A DNA stretch of 64,000 nucleotides from Halovivax gelatinilyticus (lineage in GTDB: Archaea; Halobacteriota; Halobacteria; Halobacteriales; Natrialbaceae). How positions within the stretch are numbered: the stretch's first letter is position 1; the number at the start of each line of letters is the position of its first letter. A model generated the notes under the pieces. It searched no databases, was not told the origin of the DNA, and saw nothing but the letters and a program-made list of their open reading frames with translations. This document shows positions 811 through 56,277 of this stretch, piece by piece. The stretch lies in assembly GCF_024300625.1 (NCBI RefSeq), contig NZ_CP101322.1, positions 757,992-821,991 on the forward strand, written 5' to 3'. The position numbers and the translations under genes are program-made.

Positions 811-1779
811 TTAGCCGTGGATTCCCATCGCTTCGATCTGTTCTTGGTAGCGGTTCCGAATGGTCACTTCGGTGACCTGCGCGACGTCGGCGACTTCCCG
901 CTGGGTCTTCTTTTCGTTACAGAGCAGCGACGCGGCGTAGATGGCCGCGGCGGCGTAGCCGGTGGGGGATTTACCCGAGAGCAGGCCCTCTTCGGCGGTC
1001 TTTTCGATGATTTCGTTAGCCTTGGTCTGGACCTCTTCGGAGAGTTCGAGTTCGGAGCAAAAGCGGGGGACGTACTTCTTCGGGTCGACGGGTTTCATCT
1101 CGAGGCCGAGTTCCTGGGAGATGTAGCGATACGTTCTGCCGATCTCCTTTCGCTCGACCCGCGAGACCTCGGAGATCTCTTCTAAGCTGCGCGGAATGCC
1201 CTCCTTCCGGCAGGCGGCGTAGAGTGCGGAGGTCGAAACGCCCTCGATCGACCGCCCACGGATGAGATCCTCTTTGAGCGCGCGACGATAGATGACCGAC
1301 GCGACCTCGCGAACCGAGCGGGGAACACCCAGCGCAGAGGCCATTCGGTCGATTTCCGATAGCGCGAACTGAAGGTTTCGCTCGCCGGCGTCTTTCGTTC
1401 GAATGCGCTCTTGCCACTTGCGCAGTCGGTGCATCTGGCTGCGCTTTTTCGACGAGATAGAGCGACCGTAGGCGTCTTTGTCCTTCCAGTCGATCGTCGT
1501 CGTCAGCCCCTTATCGTGCATCGTCTGGGTGGTCGGCGCACCCACGCGGGATTTCTCCTGGCGCTCCTGGTGGTTGAACGCTCGCCACTCGGGGCCCGGA
1601 TCGATCTTTTCTTCCTCCACAACGAGTCCGCAGTCCTCACAGATTAGTTCTCCTCGGTCGGAATCTTTTACCAGGTTATCGGATTCACACTCCGGACAGG
1701 CTCGTACCCCCTCTTGTTCATCGTCCTCGACCTCGACCGTCTCGCGCGTGCGCTCCCGCTGGCGGGTGGACCGTGTCAT
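811..1779 (-). CDS. tfb: Transcription initiation factor IIB (TFB)
   Basis: A 322-residue TFB, which bridges the TATA-binding protein and RNA polymerase at archaeal promoters. The N-terminal zinc ribbon has Cys 28, 31, 47 and 50. The B-reader region follows ([15 protein letters not shown]), then two cyclin-like repeats (about 120-215 and 220-320), the second with [14 protein letters not shown]. Length is full for the family. Haloarchaea usually carry several TFB paralogs, so the paralog number cannot be told from sequence alone. The ATG lies 28 bp from a strong TATA box, so the transcript is probably leaderless. Confidence 0.96.
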
Positions 1780-1806
1780 CGCACTTTTATAGTAGTATCT
1801 TTACCA

Positions 1807-1814
1807 CATATAAA
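1807..1814 (-). promoter_or_regulatory. TATA box of tfb
   Basis: On the minus strand this reads TTTATATG inside an AT-rich stretch. It sits 28 bp upstream of the tfb ATG, the usual spacing for a leaderless haloarchaeal transcript. Confidence 0.7.
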
Positions 1815-1939
1815 CCTTTTGTTCGGTGCGTGGTCGTGATCCCGGATTTCGACGCTTGCTGGTATTTTGTGGCCGAATACGCCTGAAATTCAGCGAGAAA
1901 CCAGAAAGGTTTTATCCCCGATTCCACTCCAGTGGATCG

Positions 1940-2533
1940 ATGCCGGTCATCGAGTGTGACGTCGACGACGCGCGCGAGCGCCTTGAATCCGCTGGTGTGA
2001 CCATCGAAGACGGCAACACCTCCCACGAACGCTGGCGAGCCTCGCGCGGCGACGCGACGGCCGTCGCCTACGACGAGAAAGTAGTCATCCAGGGCGGGCG
2101 ACCCACTGACCTAGCGGCGCTGCTCAGAGACGGCGGCGGCAGAGCACACCTCTACTGGGACGGCGCCGCCCGCGGCAACCCGGGCCCCGCGGCCGTCGGC
2201 TGGGTGCTCGTCACGAGCGACGGGATCGTCGCCGAGGGTGGAGAACGGATCGGCCGAGCCACCAACAACCAGGCGGAGTACGAGGCGCTGATCGCCGCAC
2301 TCGAGGCCGCGAGGGCGTACGAATTCGACGAACTCCACTGTCGCGGCGACGCCGAGTTGATCGTCAAACAGGTTCGGGGCGAGTACGACACGAACGATCC
2401 CGAGCTGCGCGAGAAACGCGTCACGGTCTGTGAACACCTCTCATCGTTCGACGAGTGGACGATCGAACACGTCCCGCGCGCGGTCAACGAGCGCGCGGAC
2501 GAACTCGCCAACGAGGCCCTGGACGGTTCGTAG
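1940..2533 (+). CDS. rnhA: Ribonuclease HI
   Basis: RNase HI cleaves the RNA strand of RNA-DNA hybrids. The protein is 198 residues. The RNase H fold starts near residue 68 with LYWDGAARGNPGPAAVGW. Catalytic acids are visible as Asp74, Glu113 (in NNQAEYEAL) and Asp137 (in CRGDAELI). An extra N-terminal domain of about 65 residues precedes it. The frame is open further upstream, but the ATG at 1940 gives the usual haloarchaeal N-terminus MPVIECDVDD. A TATA-like TTTTATC lies about 30 bp before it, so I chose this start. The gene 440 bp downstream is the conserved rnhA operon protein. Confidence 0.93.
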   Translation: MPVIECDVDDARERLESAGVTIEDGNTSHERWRASRGDATAVAYDEKVVIQGGRPTDLAALLRDGGGRAHLYWDGAARGNPGPAAVGWVLVTSDGIVAEGGERIGRATNNQAEYEALIAALEAARAYEFDELHCRGDAELIVKQVRGEYDTNDPELREKRVTVCEHLSSFDEWTIEHVPRAVNERADELANEALDGS

Positions 2534-2557
2534 CCGGTCGGTCGTACGAGGTTCGTC

Positions 2558-2854
2558 TCAGTTCCCGTCGTCGCCGAGCCACCGGATCGCGACGTAGAGT
2601 CCGATCGCTACGGCGGCGAGAACCCCGATCGTCCGGACCGTCGATCGGTCACCGGTCGTCTCCGTCGCGGGCTCCGCCGGCGTCGATTCGACGTCGACCG
2701 CCTCGTCGGCGGACGGGGCCTCCGCTACCTGCGGTTCGTCGGCGGCGACCGCCTCCCTGATGGGCTCGCCGAGCGGCGTCTCGAGCGCGAGGGAAATCGC
2801 CTCCCTGACCGCCAGTTGTACCACGTCGCGCTCCAGTTCGGTCTCTTCTAGCAT
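2558..2854 (-). CDS. Small membrane-anchored protein, unknown
   Basis: A 98-residue protein. The first 40 residues look helical, the middle is acidic and Pro/Thr-rich, and there is one C-terminal membrane segment (about 74-91, GVLAAVAIGLYVAIRWLG). This predicts a tail-anchored topology with the N-terminal part in the cytoplasm. It lies between rnhA and the rnhA operon protein but on the opposite strand, so it is not in that operon. I do not recognise a family. Strong third-position GC and acidic composition support it being translated. Confidence 0.6.
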   Translation of the reverse strand: MLEETELERDVVQLAVREAISLALETPLGEPIREAVAADEPQVAEAPSADEAVDVESTPAEPATETTGDRSTVRTIGVLAAVAIGLYVAIRWLGDDGN

Positions 2855-2975
2855 ACGCGAAGATGACGCGACGGCACACTAAAACGCTACGGCGTTTCTC
2901 CGCGAACTGAGACCTCGACGCGTCGGACGAAACCGACAGGCGGATGTGCGATTGCACCGAACGGCGCACAACCGG

Positions 2976-3716
2976 ATGACCGCCCCAGGAGCGAACGAAC
3001 GCCCGAACGCGGACGGAAAAGACACAGACGAACGAGTAGACGCGCTGCTCGACGACGCGATCGAATCGCCGTCCGAGGGGAGCGACGACGAATCAACCCC
3101 GGACCGATTCGCCGACGAAGCCCTCCCCGCAGCGCTCCTTCGCGACGTCTGCCGACTGACCCGACTCGCGAGGCGAGCCGTCGACGAGAACGAACGAACG
3201 GCCTACACCGACCGACGCGACGAGTTGCTGGCCGAACGCGGCTACACCGCGCGCCTCCGGGAGACGGACGAGACGTTGGTCTGTCACCCCGCGTCGTGGC
3301 TCGACGACGGCGTCGTTCGGACCGACCGGATCGACGACCTCTCGGAGGCGGTCGAACTTCGCCTCGCCGGCCCGGGCGACCCGGACGACTGGGACGCCCT
3401 CGACGCGGCGAATCGCGACCTCGTCGAGACCGTTCGGACCCGTCACGGCGACGTTCACGCCGCGAACGCCGACACGTTCGCAGACTTCATGGGAAACCAC
3501 TGCGCGAAACCGATCCCGTCCGCCACCGCCACCGAGATCGAGACATTCCTCGCCGAGTACTACCCGCGGAACGCCTGGCCATCGCGCGCACAGCGGGCGG
3601 TCGTCACCCGGTCGATCGAGCACGTATTCGACGCCTGCGGCGAGCCGATGCCGACGATTTCGATCCCGGAATCACTGCGGACAGGCGGGACGGAACCCGA
3701 TTCGTTCGAACGGTGA
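2976..3716 (+). CDS. rnhA operon protein (conserved haloarchaeal)
   Basis: A 246-residue acidic soluble protein. It resembles the protein that haloarchaeal annotations call rnhA operon protein, known only by its position beside RNase HI. An Asp/Glu-rich N-terminal tail of about 60 residues is followed by a predicted helical domain with ALLRDVCRLTRLARRAV and a C-terminal part with PSRAQRAVVTRSIEHVFDACG. No catalytic motif is obvious. The frame allows a GTG 10 codons upstream; I prefer the ATG at 2976. Function is unknown. The link to R-loop or RNA-DNA hybrid handling is only suggested by the neighbour. Confidence 0.75.
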   Translation: MTAPGANERPNADGKDTDERVDALLDDAIESPSEGSDDESTPDRFADEALPAALLRDVCRLTRLARRAVDENERTAYTDRRDELLAERGYTARLRETDETLVCHPASWLDDGVVRTDRIDDLSEAVELRLAGPGDPDDWDALDAANRDLVETVRTRHGDVHAANADTFADFMGNHCAKPIPSATATEIETFLAEYYPRNAWPSRAQRAVVTRSIEHVFDACGEPMPTISIPESLRTGGTEPDSFER

Positions 3717-3801
3717 GCAGAGCCGATCGGACGACGGCGCGCGCAAATACCGTCGGCACTGTCGAGGAAACTGGCGCGAAAAAGTAACCGGTAGTGGACG
3801 G

Positions 3802-4161
3802 TTAGTAGCTGTCGTCGATCAGGGCGTCGACTTGGTCTGCGCGGTCCTCGTCGGTGACGATCTTCGAGAGCGTCCACTCGAGCTGGTCGAGGACGGCCTC
3901 GAAGCCCTCGTCGGTGAGTTCGTACTGGTTCGTGCGCTTGTCGAGTTCGCTCTTTTCGATCAGACCGAGATCGACGAGTTCGTCCAGGTTCGGGTAGAGC
4001 CGACCGTGGTTGACCTCGGTGTCGTAGTACGACTCGAGTTCGCGCTTGATGGCCAGTCCGTACATGGCCTCCGTCGAGAGGATGGTCAGAATGTTGTTCT
4101 GGAATGCGGTGAGATCGCGGGCTGTGCGTCCGTCGTCGTTGATTGATTGTGCCTCTGACAT
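3802..4161 (-). CDS. rosR: PadR-type winged-helix regulator, RosR-like
   Basis: A 119-residue winged-helix protein. The PadR signature is clear: NILTILSTEAMYGLAIKREL, then VNHGRLYPNLDELVDLGLIEKSE, then NQYELTDEGFEAVL. In Halobacterium salinarum the oxidative-stress regulator RosR is of this type and, as I recall, lies beside the pyrophosphatase gene ppa. The same divergent arrangement occurs here, so orthology is likely but inferred. It presumably binds DNA as a dimer and lacks a ligand domain. A TATA box is at 4183-4190, 22 bp before the ATG. Confidence 0.85.
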   Translation of the reverse strand: MSEAQSINDDGRTARDLTAFQNNILTILSTEAMYGLAIKRELESYYDTEVNHGRLYPNLDELVDLGLIEKSELDKRTNQYELTDEGFEAVLDQLEWTLSKIVTDEDRADQVDALIDDSY

Positions 4162-4187
4162 AGTTTGGGTAATGTCACCGATCTATT

Positions 4188-4207
4188 TAACCCTTTCTTA
4201 CGGGTTA
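4188..4207. promoter_or_regulatory. Inverted repeat at the rosR-like promoter
   Basis: TAACCC (4188-4193) and GGGTTA (4202-4207) form a 6-bp inverted repeat with an 8-bp spacer. It overlaps the TATA box and the BRE position of the rosR-like gene, so it could be an autoregulatory operator. The repeat is short and the call is tentative. Confidence 0.35.
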
Positions 4208-4352
4208 GGCGTGCAGTTCGGTGGGTACCGCCGAGACACCCGCGATATCACCAGCTTCGGACGATCCGCTGGGCGACAGCGCAGATGTCGTCCGTGTAAT
4301 ATCCAACGTTATTACGAAAGTACTTTTTGATCGACCACGGATACTCCGATGG

Positions 4353-4886
4353 ATGACGAATCTCTGGGAAGACCTGGAAACCGGACCGAACCCGCCAGAA
4401 ACGATCTACGCCGTGATCGAGTGTCTGAAAGGCGAGCGAAACAAGTACGAGTACGACAAGGACGTCCCCGGCGTCGTCTTAGACCGCGTCTTGCACTCGA
4501 ACGTCCACTACCCCTCTGACTACGGCTTCATCCCGCAGAGTTACTACGACGACGAGGACCCGTTCGACGTACTCGTTCTCGTCGAAGACGCGACCTTCCC
4601 GGGCTGTATCATCGAAGCCCGCCCGGTCGCACTCATGCGAATGGACGACGACGGCGAACAGGACGATAAGGTCATCGCGGTCCCGACCGAAGATCCCCGG
4701 TTCGATCACATCGAAGACGTAGAAGACATCCCCCAGCAGACCCGCGAGGAGATCGACGAGTTCTTCGCGACCTACAAGAACTTAGAGGCCGGCAAAGAAG
4801 TCGAAACGCTCGGCTGGGAGGATCGTCAGGCCGCCTACGACGCGATCGAACACGCCCAGGACCTCTACGCCGAACACTTCGGGTAG
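4353..4886 (+). CDS. ppa: Inorganic pyrophosphatase, family I
   Basis: Hydrolyses pyrophosphate from biosynthetic reactions to two phosphates in the cytoplasm, using Mg. At 177 residues it has the normal size of the soluble family I enzyme. The signature DEDPFDVLVL (near 69-78) carries the metal-binding Asp residues. KYEYDKD and YPSDYGFIP are conserved active-site segments. An in-frame extension upstream exists, but the ATG at 4353 starts the canonical MTNLWEDLETGPNPPE and lies 25-30 bp after a TATA-like TACTTTTTG (4319-4328). It is divergent from the PadR regulator. Confidence 0.96.
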   Translation: MTNLWEDLETGPNPPETIYAVIECLKGERNKYEYDKDVPGVVLDRVLHSNVHYPSDYGFIPQSYYDDEDPFDVLVLVEDATFPGCIIEARPVALMRMDDDGEQDDKVIAVPTEDPRFDHIEDVEDIPQQTREEIDEFFATYKNLEAGKEVETLGWEDRQAAYDAIEHAQDLYAEHFG

Positions 4887-4950
4887 CCTCCTACGATTCT
4901 TCGACGAACGTACACGCGATCAGTGACGCCACAGCCAGCGCGGGCGAAGC

Positions 4951-7900
4951 TCACTCGGAAACGGTCGACGTCGATGTCTCGTCGTCGAAGGGAGCCGTCG
5001 ACGCCGGCAATCGTAACTCGACGATCGTCCCGCGCGGTTCGTTCTCGGCGAACTGGAGTTCACCCCCGGCCTGGGTGACCACCCAATCGACCAGCCAGAG
5101 GCCGAGCCCGCTCGCGTGTCTGAGTTGCGTGATCTCTCGCTCTTCTTCGAGCAACTGTCGTTCCTCGTCGGGAATACCCGGCCCGTCGTCCGCGATCGTG
5201 ATCGCGATCGGTTCGTCAGCCCCCGCCGCTTCGATCGAGACCGAGATGCCGGGAACGTCACGGTCCGAGTGTTCGACTGCATTTTCGAGGACGTTGTATA
5301 TCGCCTCCGTCAACAGGTCGTCCGCCCGAACGTGGGCGCGTGCCGGTAGCGAACGGTCGACGTCGACCGATCCGTACTGATCGACCACGCGCCCGATCGC
5401 CGCCTCCGTCGCGTCGACGGCGTCAACCGGCCCGGACGCCAGCGCACCGCGATCGAGCGTCCGCTCGACGACGCGCGTTTTCGCCGCGAGGCTGATGAGT
5501 TCGTCCGTTCGCGCGCTGATCGCCTTCGAATACTGCTCGGCCTCTTCGTCGTCGGCCAACGCGGCGAGTCGTTCGGCGCTCCCTTCGATGATGTTCATCC
5601 CGTTTCGTAAGTCGTGTCGCAGCACCCGGTTTAGCACTTCGACGCGTTTTTGTCGCTGTTTTTGCTCGGTGATGTCGGTGTAGACACCGAAGGCGTACTT
5701 TCCGCCGTCTTCGACCTCGAACGGGACGACGCGAAGCATGAAATCTCTGAGACCGTCGGTCGTTCGCCGCTTGACTTCCGTCTCGATGACCTCGCCCGCC
5801 TCGCTCCGACTGTTGATCGCCCGGGCCTCGTCGCGTCGTTCGGGCCCCGTGATGTACTCGTCGATCGGCTCGCCTTCGAGCGTCTCGAGGTCGAACCCGA
5901 ACGTCTCTTCGAACGCCGAGTTCATGTCCTCGACGATGAACTCGTTACCGACGTGCGGCCCGGCGACGACGGCGTCGGGAACGTTCTCGAAGAGGACGGC
6001 AAAGCGGTCTCGCTCGGCGACGAGCTGGGCCTCGAACGCGAGCCGGTCGAGGGCGTCGACGACGTGGCTGATCAGGAGTTCGGCGAGTTCTTCGTCCCGT
6101 TCGTCGAACGCATCGTACTCGGTCGATATCGCCTGGAACACGCCGTACTCGCCGATCGGAACGCTCAATCCCGACTTGAATCCCTCATCCTGCGGTTTCG
6201 CCTCCGCCGACCCGGGAACGTCGTTCACCCGGAACGTCCGTCCCTCGGTGTAGGTCCGTCCGCCGAGCCCCTCGTCAAGCGACCGACGCGTCTGGAACTG
6301 ATCCGGATCGATGCCGGACGAGAGAGTGTGCAGTTCGAGGACGGAATCGACGACCTCGCTCACCACGCAGAGGTCGAACTGTAAGACACCTTCTGCGACC
6401 TCGACAGTCTCCTCGTAAATGTCCGCTCTGGTCTCACACGCCTCGAGCCGGGAGACGACCTCGTGGAGGTTGGTAATCTTGGTCTGGTGATCGAGCAACG
6501 CCTGTTGCATCGCCGCTCGGTCGCTGACGTCCCTGACGATACCGACGGTCCCCATCGCCTCCGCGTCGTCGGCCACTTTCGTCGTCACCTCACACGGTAT
6601 CGTCTCGCCACCCGCCGTCTCGAGGAGAATTTCGGTCGTCAGCGTGGTGTCGCGCGGATCCGCACCGTCGCACGCTGCGACGAATTCCGACGCCGATCCG
6701 GTAACGACCGCGAGCGCTCGCTCGTTGGCGTCTGACGGGAACACCGCGGACGCGTGTGCGTCGAGAAGCGCCTCCCGCTCGCACCCGGTCATCGACAGCA
6801 AGGTGTCGTTGACCGTGGTAAACCGGCCAGCGTCGTCCAGCGCGTAGACGCCGTCGCCGACCGTTTCGACGATCGTTTTCGCCCGGCGAAGTTCGCGATC
6901 ACGATCGACCCGTTCGAGCGCGACGGCAGCGGTCGCCGCCAGGACGTCGGCGAGGTGGTACTCGACCTGCCCGAACGAGGTATCGGCCGTCGACCCGATC
7001 GTCAGGAGGCCCCGCTCCCCGATCGGCATGCAGATGACGGTCCCGATGGCGACCTCGAGGTCGTACGGGAGATCCACGTCGTCGATCGATTCCACGACGA
7101 TCGACTCACCCCGGTCGAAGGCGTCCCAGAGCGTCCCGTCCCCCTTCCCGATGGTCGTCCCTTCCACTGATGGCCCGACATCTGCAGAAACGGCCCCGAG
7201 AGTCAGCGCTTCCCGCGTCGAGTCGTATAACCGAACGGATGCGCGGGCGCGGTCGACAACGTTCGTCACCGCTTCGACGACGATATCCGCGATCTCCTCG
7301 TCCGACCTGGCGCGCATCAACCGGTGCGTGGTCGACTGTAACGCCTCTAGGGTATCCGATCGGCGGACTTCGTCGGTGACCTCCTGGGCGAACGAGAGGA
7401 TGCCGGTTACGTCGCCCGATTCGTCTTTGATCGGGCTGTTATGCCACTCACAGACGCAGATCGAGCCGTCGCTTCGGACGTTTCGTCCGAGTTCGCGATC
7501 GCTCTCGCCCGTCTCGACCAGGCGCTTCCAGTGATCGAGGACGGCCTCGCGGTCGCGCGGTGGGACCATTATCTCGATCGCCGGTTCGCCGATCACCTCC
7601 GAGGCGGCGTAACCGAACAGTTCCTCCGCGGCGTCGTTCCACCGCACCGCTTCGTAGGAGAGGTCCCACTCGATGATCGCGAGCGGCGCCTGATCGACGA
7701 CCATATCCGACCACGTCGGCGAGTACGTCGCCGTATCGCGCCGACTCCCCGTCGCCGGAGAACGGCGCTCATCGGCCGAAAGCGCGTCGAGCAACCGCTC
7801 GCCCAACAGGTCGTCGGCCTCGACCAGCGGAACGTAGCCGTCGGCCCCCGCAGCGATCGAACGACCCGCGAGCGATTCGCTTCCGTCGGCCGGACAGAGT

Positions 7901-21266: not shown

Positions 21267-21458
21267 GTGTATCACCGCGGGCGTCTCCTGGTTCAGACCG
21301 GACGAGTCGTCTCGTGCGGTCCACATTCCGACCCGTGACTGGCGTCGAACGGGTGCCCGCTGGTGCCCGCCGTCCAGCGTAGCTACCGGTACTACCCAGC
21401 GTCGTTTCATAAGGCCTTCGAAGCGTCGACGACGCCGGCGAACGAGGGGTATCGAGCG

Positions 21459-41730: not shown

Positions 41731-41804
41731 CCGCCCTTAGCTCAGCCTGGTAGAGCAGTCGACTGTAGATCGACTTGTCCCCCGTTCAAATCGGGGAGGG
41801 CGGA
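41731..41804 (+). tRNA. tRNA-Tyr (GTA)
   Basis: A 74-base tRNA, without encoded CCA and without intron. The acceptor stem is CCGCCCT / AGGGCGG with the archaeal C1-G72 pair of tRNA-Tyr. The D-arm is GCTC...GAGC, the anticodon loop CTGTAGA carries GTA, the T-arm is CCCCG-TTCAAAT-CGGGG and the discriminator is A. It is followed immediately by three tandem repeat modules that copy its 3' end. Confidence 0.97.
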
Positions 41805-42346
41805 CTGCGAGGCGCGAACGAAGTGAGCGCCTCGATATACCGAACGGCGAAGCCGTGAGTACTTTTGTTGCGAACGAAGTGAGCAGTCAAAAGTCCACAC
41901 CGACACGGTTTGAACACGGAAGTCGCACGCCCGCGCAGCCGAGCGTGAGCGAGGTGAGCAGGAACGTCTTCCACCTGTTCAAATCGGGGAGGGCGGACTT
42001 TTGGAGATCCAACTGACGAGCGAAACGAGTACTTGGATCTCCAAAAGTCGATGCCGATCCGATTTGAACACGAGAGTCGCAGCCCCGGAACGGCCGAGCG
42101 AAGCGAGGCCGCATGCCCGGAACGTCTCCCATCTGTTCAAATCGGGGAGGGCGGACTGCGAGGCGCGAACGAAGTGAGCGCCTCGATATACCGAACGGCG
42201 AAGCCGTGAGTACTTTTGCTGCGAACGAAGTGAGCAGTCAAAAGTCCACACCGACACGGTTTGAACACGGAAGTCGCACGCCCGCGCAGCCGAGCGTGAG
42301 CGAGGTGAGCAGGAACGTCTTCCATCTGTTCAAATCGGGGGCGGAC
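41805..42346 (+). repeat. Three tandem tRNA-Tyr tail modules
   Basis: The last 23 bases of the T-arm and acceptor region (41784-41806, GTTCAAATCGGGG...) recur at 41977-41999 and 42135-42157, and as a copy lacking 3 bases at 42328-42346. The spacings are 193, 158 and 193 bp. Each module has a hairpin (8-bp stem CGAGGCGC/GCGCCTCG in modules 1 and 3; 15-bp stem CTTTTGGAGATCCAA in module 2). Then follow an antisense T-arm (41907-41916, 42059-42070, 42258-42267), a hairpin-rich stretch and the conserved lead GGAACGTCTYCCAYCT before the sense copy. Modules 1 and 3 are nearly identical. Confidence 0.9.
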
Positions 42347-42744
42347 AGTATGAGTCAGACGGTCTTCCACTATCGCCGCGTCGGCCACCCGACGAAGTAC
42401 ACTCGTGACGTCCGATCCAGTTTCGGAAACTCCAGCCAGCTCAGTCCCGAACCGACAGCAGGTACGTTCGCATCTCCGTTCTCGATTCGAACTGGTCCGG
42501 TGGACCGCCTTCAGCCCTGTTTTCCGGCACCTGAGCGTGGGGCCCCTCGTGTAAGTGTTCGTGAAGCGAGAGGTGTATTCGGAAGTCGGCGTCGATCCGA
42601 GTCGCTGGAGGTGACCAGCGTCGTGGCTCCGTTCGGCGTCGAAGCCGGCAGAAGCGAAGAAAAGAAGGAAAACACAACCAATTTTTTGGAAATGGTGGAA
42701 ACAGGAGCGTCTCGGCTAAGATCCAAAGACCCGTTCGTCTCAGC
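42347..42744. other. Gap after the repeat array; no gene seen
   Basis: About 400 bp between the last tRNA-tail copy and the next gene. Open frames here have no coding character. A weak AT-rich stretch (CAATTTTTTGGAAATGG) near 42679-42695 could be the promoter of the 110-residue protein gene. I see no integrase or other cargo remnant. Confidence 0.5.
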
Positions 42745-56072: not shown

Positions 56073-56205
56073 ATGGACTCGCTGGGATTTGAACCCGGAG
56101 GTAGACGGTCGCTCGCTTCGCTCGCGCTTCGACTTCCAGGGCTTCAAATCCCAGCTTCGACGAGGATCCGCGCGGCTCACGAATGAGTGAGCCGCGCACG
56201 AATAA
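56073..56205 (-). repeat. Single tRNA-Ala tail module
   Basis: The 24 bp at the 3' end of tRNA-Ala (56205-56228) recur exactly at 56073-56096, 132 bp away. Reading from the tRNA 3' end on the minus strand: a perfect 11-bp hairpin (56170-56180 / 56187-56197), an antisense T-arm copy (56139-56155), a GAGCGAAGCGAGC-type hairpin stretch, then the sense T-arm plus acceptor copy. The antisense copy pairs with the sense copy over 16 of 17 positions. CGACGAGGAT also recurs at 56058 and 56158. The plan matches the tRNA-Tyr modules. Confidence 0.9.
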
Positions 56206-56277
56206 TGGACTCGCTGGGATTTGAACCCAGGGCCTCTTCCTTGCGAAGGAAGCGATCTACCACTGATCTACGAGCCC
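56206..56277 (-). tRNA. tRNA-Ala (CGC)
   Basis: A 72-base tRNA on the minus strand. The acceptor stem is GGGCTCG / CGAGTCC (one G-T pair), D-arm GATC...GATC, anticodon stem CTTCC / GGAAG with loop TTCGCAA (anticodon CGC), T-arm CTGGG-TTCAAAT-CCCAG, discriminator A. There is no intron and no encoded CCA. Its 3' side is followed by one tail module. Confidence 0.96.

Follow-up and report, generated by a model that had tools for sequence, protein, structure and literature searches.

The 64,000-nt stretch of the Halovivax gelatinilyticus genome that was analyzed (the window) contains a tRNA-Ala(CGC) gene on its minus strand, followed by a 132-bp non-coding unit that ends in a second copy of the tRNA 3' end. 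The copy is part of a perfect 24-bp direct repeat (56073-56096 and 56205-56228, start-to-start spacing 132) which, read on the minus strand, consists of the last 23 nt of tRNA-Ala and the next T. An earlier reading of this DNA, made from the letters alone (the sequence-only reading), had reported the repeat and its spacing, and both match the sequence exactly. The parts of this unit, referred to here as a module, are listed below; R1 is a covariance model built from the modules of this genome.

56206-56277, minus strand: tRNA-Ala(CGC), the anchor, with its last 23 nt serving as template for the copy
56170-56197, minus strand: H1, an 11-bp perfect stem with a 6-nt loop, directly 3' of tRNA-Ala
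56140-56155, minus strand: antisense arm GCTGGGATTTGAAGCC, complementary to the tRNA-Ala 3' end at 15 of 16 positions
56130-56138, minus strand: 5' strand of helix P2, TGGAAGTCG, with a conserved T.T mismatch
56110-56126, minus strand: P3 terminal hairpin with tandem G.A pairs, CGCGAGCGAAGCGAGCG
56100-56107, minus strand: 3' strand of helix P2, CGTCTACC
56074-56096, minus strand: the tRNA-Ala 3' end repeated in sense orientation (T-arm plus acceptor), stopping exactly at the discriminator base
56074-56205, minus strand: the complete tRNA-Ala module, 132 bp (R1 match at 56074-56156, 63.8 bits)

The 11-bp hairpin and the antisense T-arm copy that had been described between the repeats are thus both present. 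A further hairpin, assigned to the GAGCGAAGCGAGC stretch, was located at 56111-56124, but it folds back on itself only when tandem G.A pairs are allowed, with the GCGAGCGAAGCGAGC stretch pairing as GC-GA-GC-GAA-GC-GA-GC. The predicted fold of the module has an energy of -68.2 kcal/mol (z = -5.1). The tandem-G.A hairpin sequence CGARCGNAGYGAG occurs six times in the window (0.13 expected), five times behind tRNA-Tyr and once behind tRNA-Ala, and every occurrence falls within the modules of these two tRNAs. Genome-wide, it was found at 60 sites, compared with 22 for the reversed control, and we counted 22 of these sites inside tRNA modules; it is enriched away from tRNAs too, where about 38 sites compare with the 22 of the reversed control. 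K-turn and H/ACA interpretations of the G.A hairpins were set aside, as the 3-nt bulge is absent and the ACA box is not consistent. Elsewhere in the window, an Rfam eL15-Euryarchaeota ribosomal protein leader is found at 21285-21353 on the minus strand.

The second array of the window is anchored at a tRNA-Tyr gene and has the following parts.

41731-41805, plus strand: tRNA-Tyr(GTA), the anchor
41901-41997, plus strand: Tyr module 1, with hairpin H2; copy end at 41997
42055-42155, plus strand: Tyr module 2, with hairpin H2; copy end at 42155
42252-42348, plus strand: Tyr module 3, with a decayed copy

Tyr modules 3 and 1 are 99% identical over 206 bp, and module 3 is, judged by its sequence, the product of a duplication of a two-module unit; such a duplication was also observed in the Gly(TCC) array of a congener (G001).

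In the 3.7-Mb genome of H. gelatinilyticus, the regions downstream of 40 of the 41 tRNA matches were scanned, and 30 modules were found at about 25 of these 40 genes, in one to three units each; a search of the genome likewise returned module-like matches 50-150 bp 3' of other tRNAs. Most module-bearing tRNAs are followed, at 77-169 bp, by a copy of their own 3' end, and almost all well-preserved copies start at the T-loop and stop exactly at the discriminator base. Each module has the order sense-antisense-sense and consists of the H1 hairpin, the T-loop region copied in antisense, a variable core containing the tandem-G.A hairpin, and the sense copy of the 3' end. When a copy was counted at an alignment score of at least 16, 65 of 122 tRNA genes in three congeneric genomes were found to have one of their own 3' end within 400 bp downstream, versus 4 of 1220 when downstream regions were swapped. 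All strong R1 hits that were inspected in the H. gelatinilyticus genome trace to a tRNA: by sequence inspection, those at 603808 and 1297428 each lie behind a tRNA that ARAGORN did not report there, and the one at 2219574 is separated from tRNA-Arg(TCT) by a 19.3-kb provirus inserted at that gene. Two trivial origins of the second copy were rejected, namely a dead tRNA gene pair, as the copies span the T-arm and acceptor alone and occur at 25 of 40 tRNAs, and a general genomic repeat, as the core pattern and the model hits are tied to tRNAs. No family in Rfam 15 matches the modules; above threshold, tRNAs alone match.

The antisense arm, the core and the sense copy form one long hairpin, made up of P1, P2, an internal loop and P3. 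P1 comprises the T-loop and the first T-stem bases, the T.T mismatch of P2 (GGAAG-T-CG paired with CG-T-CTTCC) is fixed, P2 and P3 are separated by an unequal internal loop (CAG/AC), and the terminal hairpin of P3 is variable. Among 29 aligned modules of the H. gelatinilyticus genome, 86.4% of the cells were paired versus 76.3% after shuffling, with 56 versus 18 double changes. We repeated this analysis with set A2, 66 modules that R1 collected from the congeners G001 and G002 and that had no part in building the model, and observed 84.7% pairing versus 73.3% after shuffling and 183 versus 67 double-changed cells (0 of 500 shuffles), while slid controls were all far lower. The same pairs were seen in set A3, which contains 57 modules from many genera. 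Because the alignments are fitted to R1, these shuffle and slide controls weigh more than the raw counts. The hairpin is conserved as a structure, and the folded molecule may be either single-stranded DNA or RNA. As a strand test, G.T mismatches were compared with A.C mismatches, giving an asymmetry in A2 (33 versus 13) that did not recur in A3 (9 versus 14); the folding energies of the two strands are nearly alike.

The module arms fit their own tRNA, as the sequence-only reading had noted for the two tRNAs of the window, and this extends to allelic differences within one tRNA: for Val(CAC) and Leu(TAA), one congener has the T-loop TTCAAAT and another has TTCGAAT, with a corresponding change in the antisense arm. 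In A2, antisense-tRNA complementarity was found in 53-66 of 66 over the T-loop and first stem bases and in 20-28 of 66 further out; opposite the acceptor the match to the tRNA is weak, and T-loops are near-universal in sequence. At cells in which the copy departs from the tRNA, the antisense arm agrees with the tRNA alone 12 times and with the copy alone once, although a shifted alignment accounts for a few of them.

The core behaves differently, being common to different tRNAs while the arms match the local one. An identical 43-nt core was found at tRNA-Glu(CTC) of G001 and tRNA-Gly(GCC) of G002 with differing arms, one T-loop being TTCGAAT with the antisense ATTCGAA and the other TTCAAAT with the antisense GTTTGAA. 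Core identity reaching 87% was observed in 24 pairs in which the tRNAs have differing 3' ends, a few of these pairs being the same isoacceptor of two species with a differing end. Copying between sites, which had been considered a poor explanation of locally adapted modules, thus does take place where the core is concerned. Core-sharing pairs have different H1 hairpins and linkers, which look tRNA-specific, and the Glu loci have the linker AAATGCGA.CCTGG in common. As H1, like the outer antisense arm, looks tRNA-specific and in part inherited, perhaps only the core moves. In modules whose cores end in CGTAG or CGTGG, the sense copy often has one added T-loop base (TTCACAATC, TTCAATATC, TTCATAATC), as at Thr, Lys(CTT) and Pro(TGG) of H. 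gelatinilyticus and at L144, L146 and L156. This extra base is common to different tRNAs, suggesting that the core may include some of the T-loop copy.

These observations also bear on the proposal that the local tRNA end was captured in both orientations. The sense end is clear, but the antisense copy matches closely over little more than the T-loop, with one or two stem bases. Because cores are shared and the antisense match is tight only at the near-universal T-loop, two-orientation capture is one explanation among others, which include core exchange among resident modules and selection on pairing.

Modules come and go within the genus. Among three congeners, zero to five modules were found at one and the same tRNA. 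In G002 no module is present at tRNA-Ala(CGC). From base 0 onward, the flank of this empty site aligns with what follows the distal copy in G001 (score 114 over 178 nt, versus at most 19 after shuffling); the site joins that flank precisely, in agreement with the earlier suggestion of a clean unit bordered by the repeat. The alignment of the same flank with the H. gelatinilyticus genome scored 33.5 and started 12-14 nt in; across these comparisons the shuffled maxima were 18-19. In the three congeners, a clean alignment was seen at some empty sites only, and in several further genera the tRNA-Ala(CGC) site is empty with a recognizable flank. Each unit is thus bounded by the exact tRNA 3' end and its distal duplicate. 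Units are stacked in tandem with the freshest copy beside the tRNA: in the 34 arrays with at least two copies, the tRNA-proximal copy was more tRNA-like in 24 and the distal copy in 4 (p = 6e-5).

The family appears confined to one class. R1 matches were found in 20 of 21 relatives and 185 of 194 Halobacteria genomes, and in a sample of the phylum they were found in 41 of 43 members of Halobacteria and in 0 of 204 genomes of other classes. A strict core pattern, searched in 84,980 bacterial and archaeal species genomes, returned 42 stretches, all from Halobacteria, and 43 of 45 pattern sites lie 33-308 nt behind a tRNA on the same strand. Viral contigs yielded no module by the one strict pattern used, no module match was found in phage records, and plasmid matches were confined to the tRNA part in all records but one.

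Altogether, our results suggest that the modules are probably non-autonomous, tRNA-anchored hairpin insertions of about 100-190 bp, non-coding, with a mobile or exchanged core, that occur throughout Halobacteria. The insertion site would be the T-loop-to-3'-end segment of the tRNA gene, as it is for tRNA-integrating tyrosine recombinases, and a putative recombinase supplied in trans may use the folded single strand as its substrate. We propose that the arms come to fit the local tRNA either because the tRNA gene being entered templates the ends or because the ends are chosen or required to match it; recombination between direct repeats may give rise to two-module duplications. A more specific and less probable version is that the modules are class-wide hairpin cassettes anchored at tRNA genes. 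The mobile core, folded as a single strand, would insert at the T-loop of nearly any tRNA gene, and the two arms would be rewritten from the tRNA found there, in opposite orientations; if so, one element could serve dozens of targets. Against the insertion reading, about 40% of the tRNA loci in the three congeners have no copy, and the presence of modules in nearly all genomes of the class fits a useful element as well.

Such a useful element might be a trailer RNA or switch, transcribed with the tRNA, whose antisense arm pairs either with the 3' half of the tRNA (H1 being the loop) or with the downstream copy and controls tRNA maturation; the arms would then match the tRNA because the pairing is selected. 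The strong covariation, the constant sense-antisense-sense order, the near-universal occurrence in the class and an antisense arm that tracks the tRNA and not the copy are all consistent with this idea. However, the presence, number and core of the modules vary at the same tRNA among congeners, from zero to five copies, a turnover that fits poorly with such a function; moreover, distal copies decay and many tRNAs have no module, and we regard a trailer RNA as unlikely.

We are similarly doubtful that core sharing reflects gene conversion, in which resident modules would swap cores within borders set by the near-universal T-loop (GAA...TTC) and template switching would keep the arms complementary, so that no insertion of whole units would be needed. 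Identical cores flanked by different H1 hairpins and arms are what such exchange would produce, and the sequence is hairpin-prone. Nevertheless, the border homology would be merely 3-8 nt, the antisense arm follows the tRNA instead of the drifted copy, contrary to arm correction, and the new occupation of empty sites is left unexplained.

Larger elements also occur at module sites. A 19.3-kb provirus-like element (L242, G000:C1:2200200-2219850) lies between tRNA-Arg(TCT) (G000:C1:2200197-2200271) and its module, with a tyrosine integrase at L242:18222-19274 and a 13-bp att, CCCATCGTGCCCG, at 2219522; by gene order it looks pleolipovirus-like. Behind tRNA-Gly(TCC) of G037, identical modules 3.0 kb apart (L297, G037:C1:3342500-3350500, 2383-5515) have a tyrosine integrase gene between them, and the second is preceded by a tRNA 3' half that extends into the anticodon loop. 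Behind tRNA-Tyr of G034, identical modules 1.9 kb apart (L298, G034:C1:702500-708000, 1710-3668) enclose a methyltransferase gene, possibly a gene cargo, and no integrase. No enzyme gene was found inside the modules, and none was linked to them. These elements, together with the usual targeting of tRNA genes by archaeal integrases (PMC8371274), might suggest that the modules are attachment sites left after internal deletion of proviruses or small integrative elements, but this is quite improbable, as uniform size, a covarying structure and cores common to unrelated tRNAs are not expected from random deletion, and att repeats leave the antisense arm unexplained.

The preferred reading, that of tRNA-anchored hairpin insertions, can be compared with several known systems. 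Downstream of tyrT in E. coli there are repeats in units of about 178 bp, each with a short copy of the tRNA-Tyr 3' end (rtT RNA). These repeats resemble the modules in being tandem units behind a tRNA, each with a copy of its 3' end, and would be the closest anatomical precedent; they differ in being restricted to a single locus and one bacterial group, and they are not known to have an antisense arm or a core shared with other tRNAs. No paper for comparing these repeats with the modules was found in the open literature.

Proviruses and plasmids that integrate at tRNA genes by tyrosine recombinases (SNJ2 type in Halobacteria; Williams-type attB) have the same target, restore and duplicate the tRNA 3' end, and leave a precise empty site. 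The modules share direct repeats that include the tRNA 3' end and the precise empty site, but such proviruses and plasmids are kilobases long and carry an integrase gene, whereas the modules are about 130 bp, non-coding, and have an antisense arm and a conserved fold; an integrase is encoded only in larger neighbors such as L297 and L242. Archaeal integrases usually have their attachment sites at tRNA 3' ends (PMC8371274), and partial tRNA genes adjoining integrated elements are already known (PMC9897764), but these are the borders of kilobase elements, unlike the tRNA-tail modules.

The modules may resemble integron attC sites in keeping the structure, more than the sequence, of an imperfect hairpin with fixed mismatches, to judge by their covariation, conserved T.T mismatch and unequal internal loop; as in integrons, the array is ordered with the newest unit at the anchor. 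Unlike in integrons, the anchor is a tRNA and the arms follow the local tRNA. Ordinary modules have no room for a gene; the identical modules of G037 and G034 enclose an integrase gene and a methyltransferase gene, respectively. REP/BIME and MITE-type repeats are likewise short, non-coding, non-autonomous hairpins in many copies, but they are dispersed with no fixed target gene, whereas the modules are tied to tRNA 3' ends, as seen at 43 of 45 pattern sites, and take their arms from the target. CRISPR arrays and casposons also duplicate the target with each insertion and have the freshest copies next to the anchor, as do the modules (24 versus 4 arrays), but a spacer is captured there, and the insert of a module is a conserved hairpin. 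No description of tRNA-tail modules was found in the open literature, to which the search was confined.

Genes for tRNAs are classic landing sites of mobile DNA, and nearly every haloarchaeal genome tested has structured units there. If the modules are mobile, they would illustrate how a single element accommodates many targets through ends that match each of them; if they are functional, they would constitute an unrecognized layer behind about half of haloarchaeal tRNA genes. In either case they complicate the annotation of att sites and tRNA fragments in haloarchaeal genomes. Furthermore, the family supplies many natural replicates, and target choice, polarity and core exchange are therefore directly testable.

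Finally, a second form of the module (type B) was observed, in which an inverted copy of the acceptor end surrounds a short hairpin, e.g. TGGACTCGCTG-TACCTCGCAAACCC-TTCGG-GTTTGCTC-AGTCCCAGCGAGTCCA. Type B modules occur behind tRNA-Ala(CGC) at L139, L142, L144, L146, L156-L158 and L163 and behind tRNA-Arg(GCG) of H. gelatinilyticus (L078), and their antisense arm mostly tracks the tRNA allele as well.
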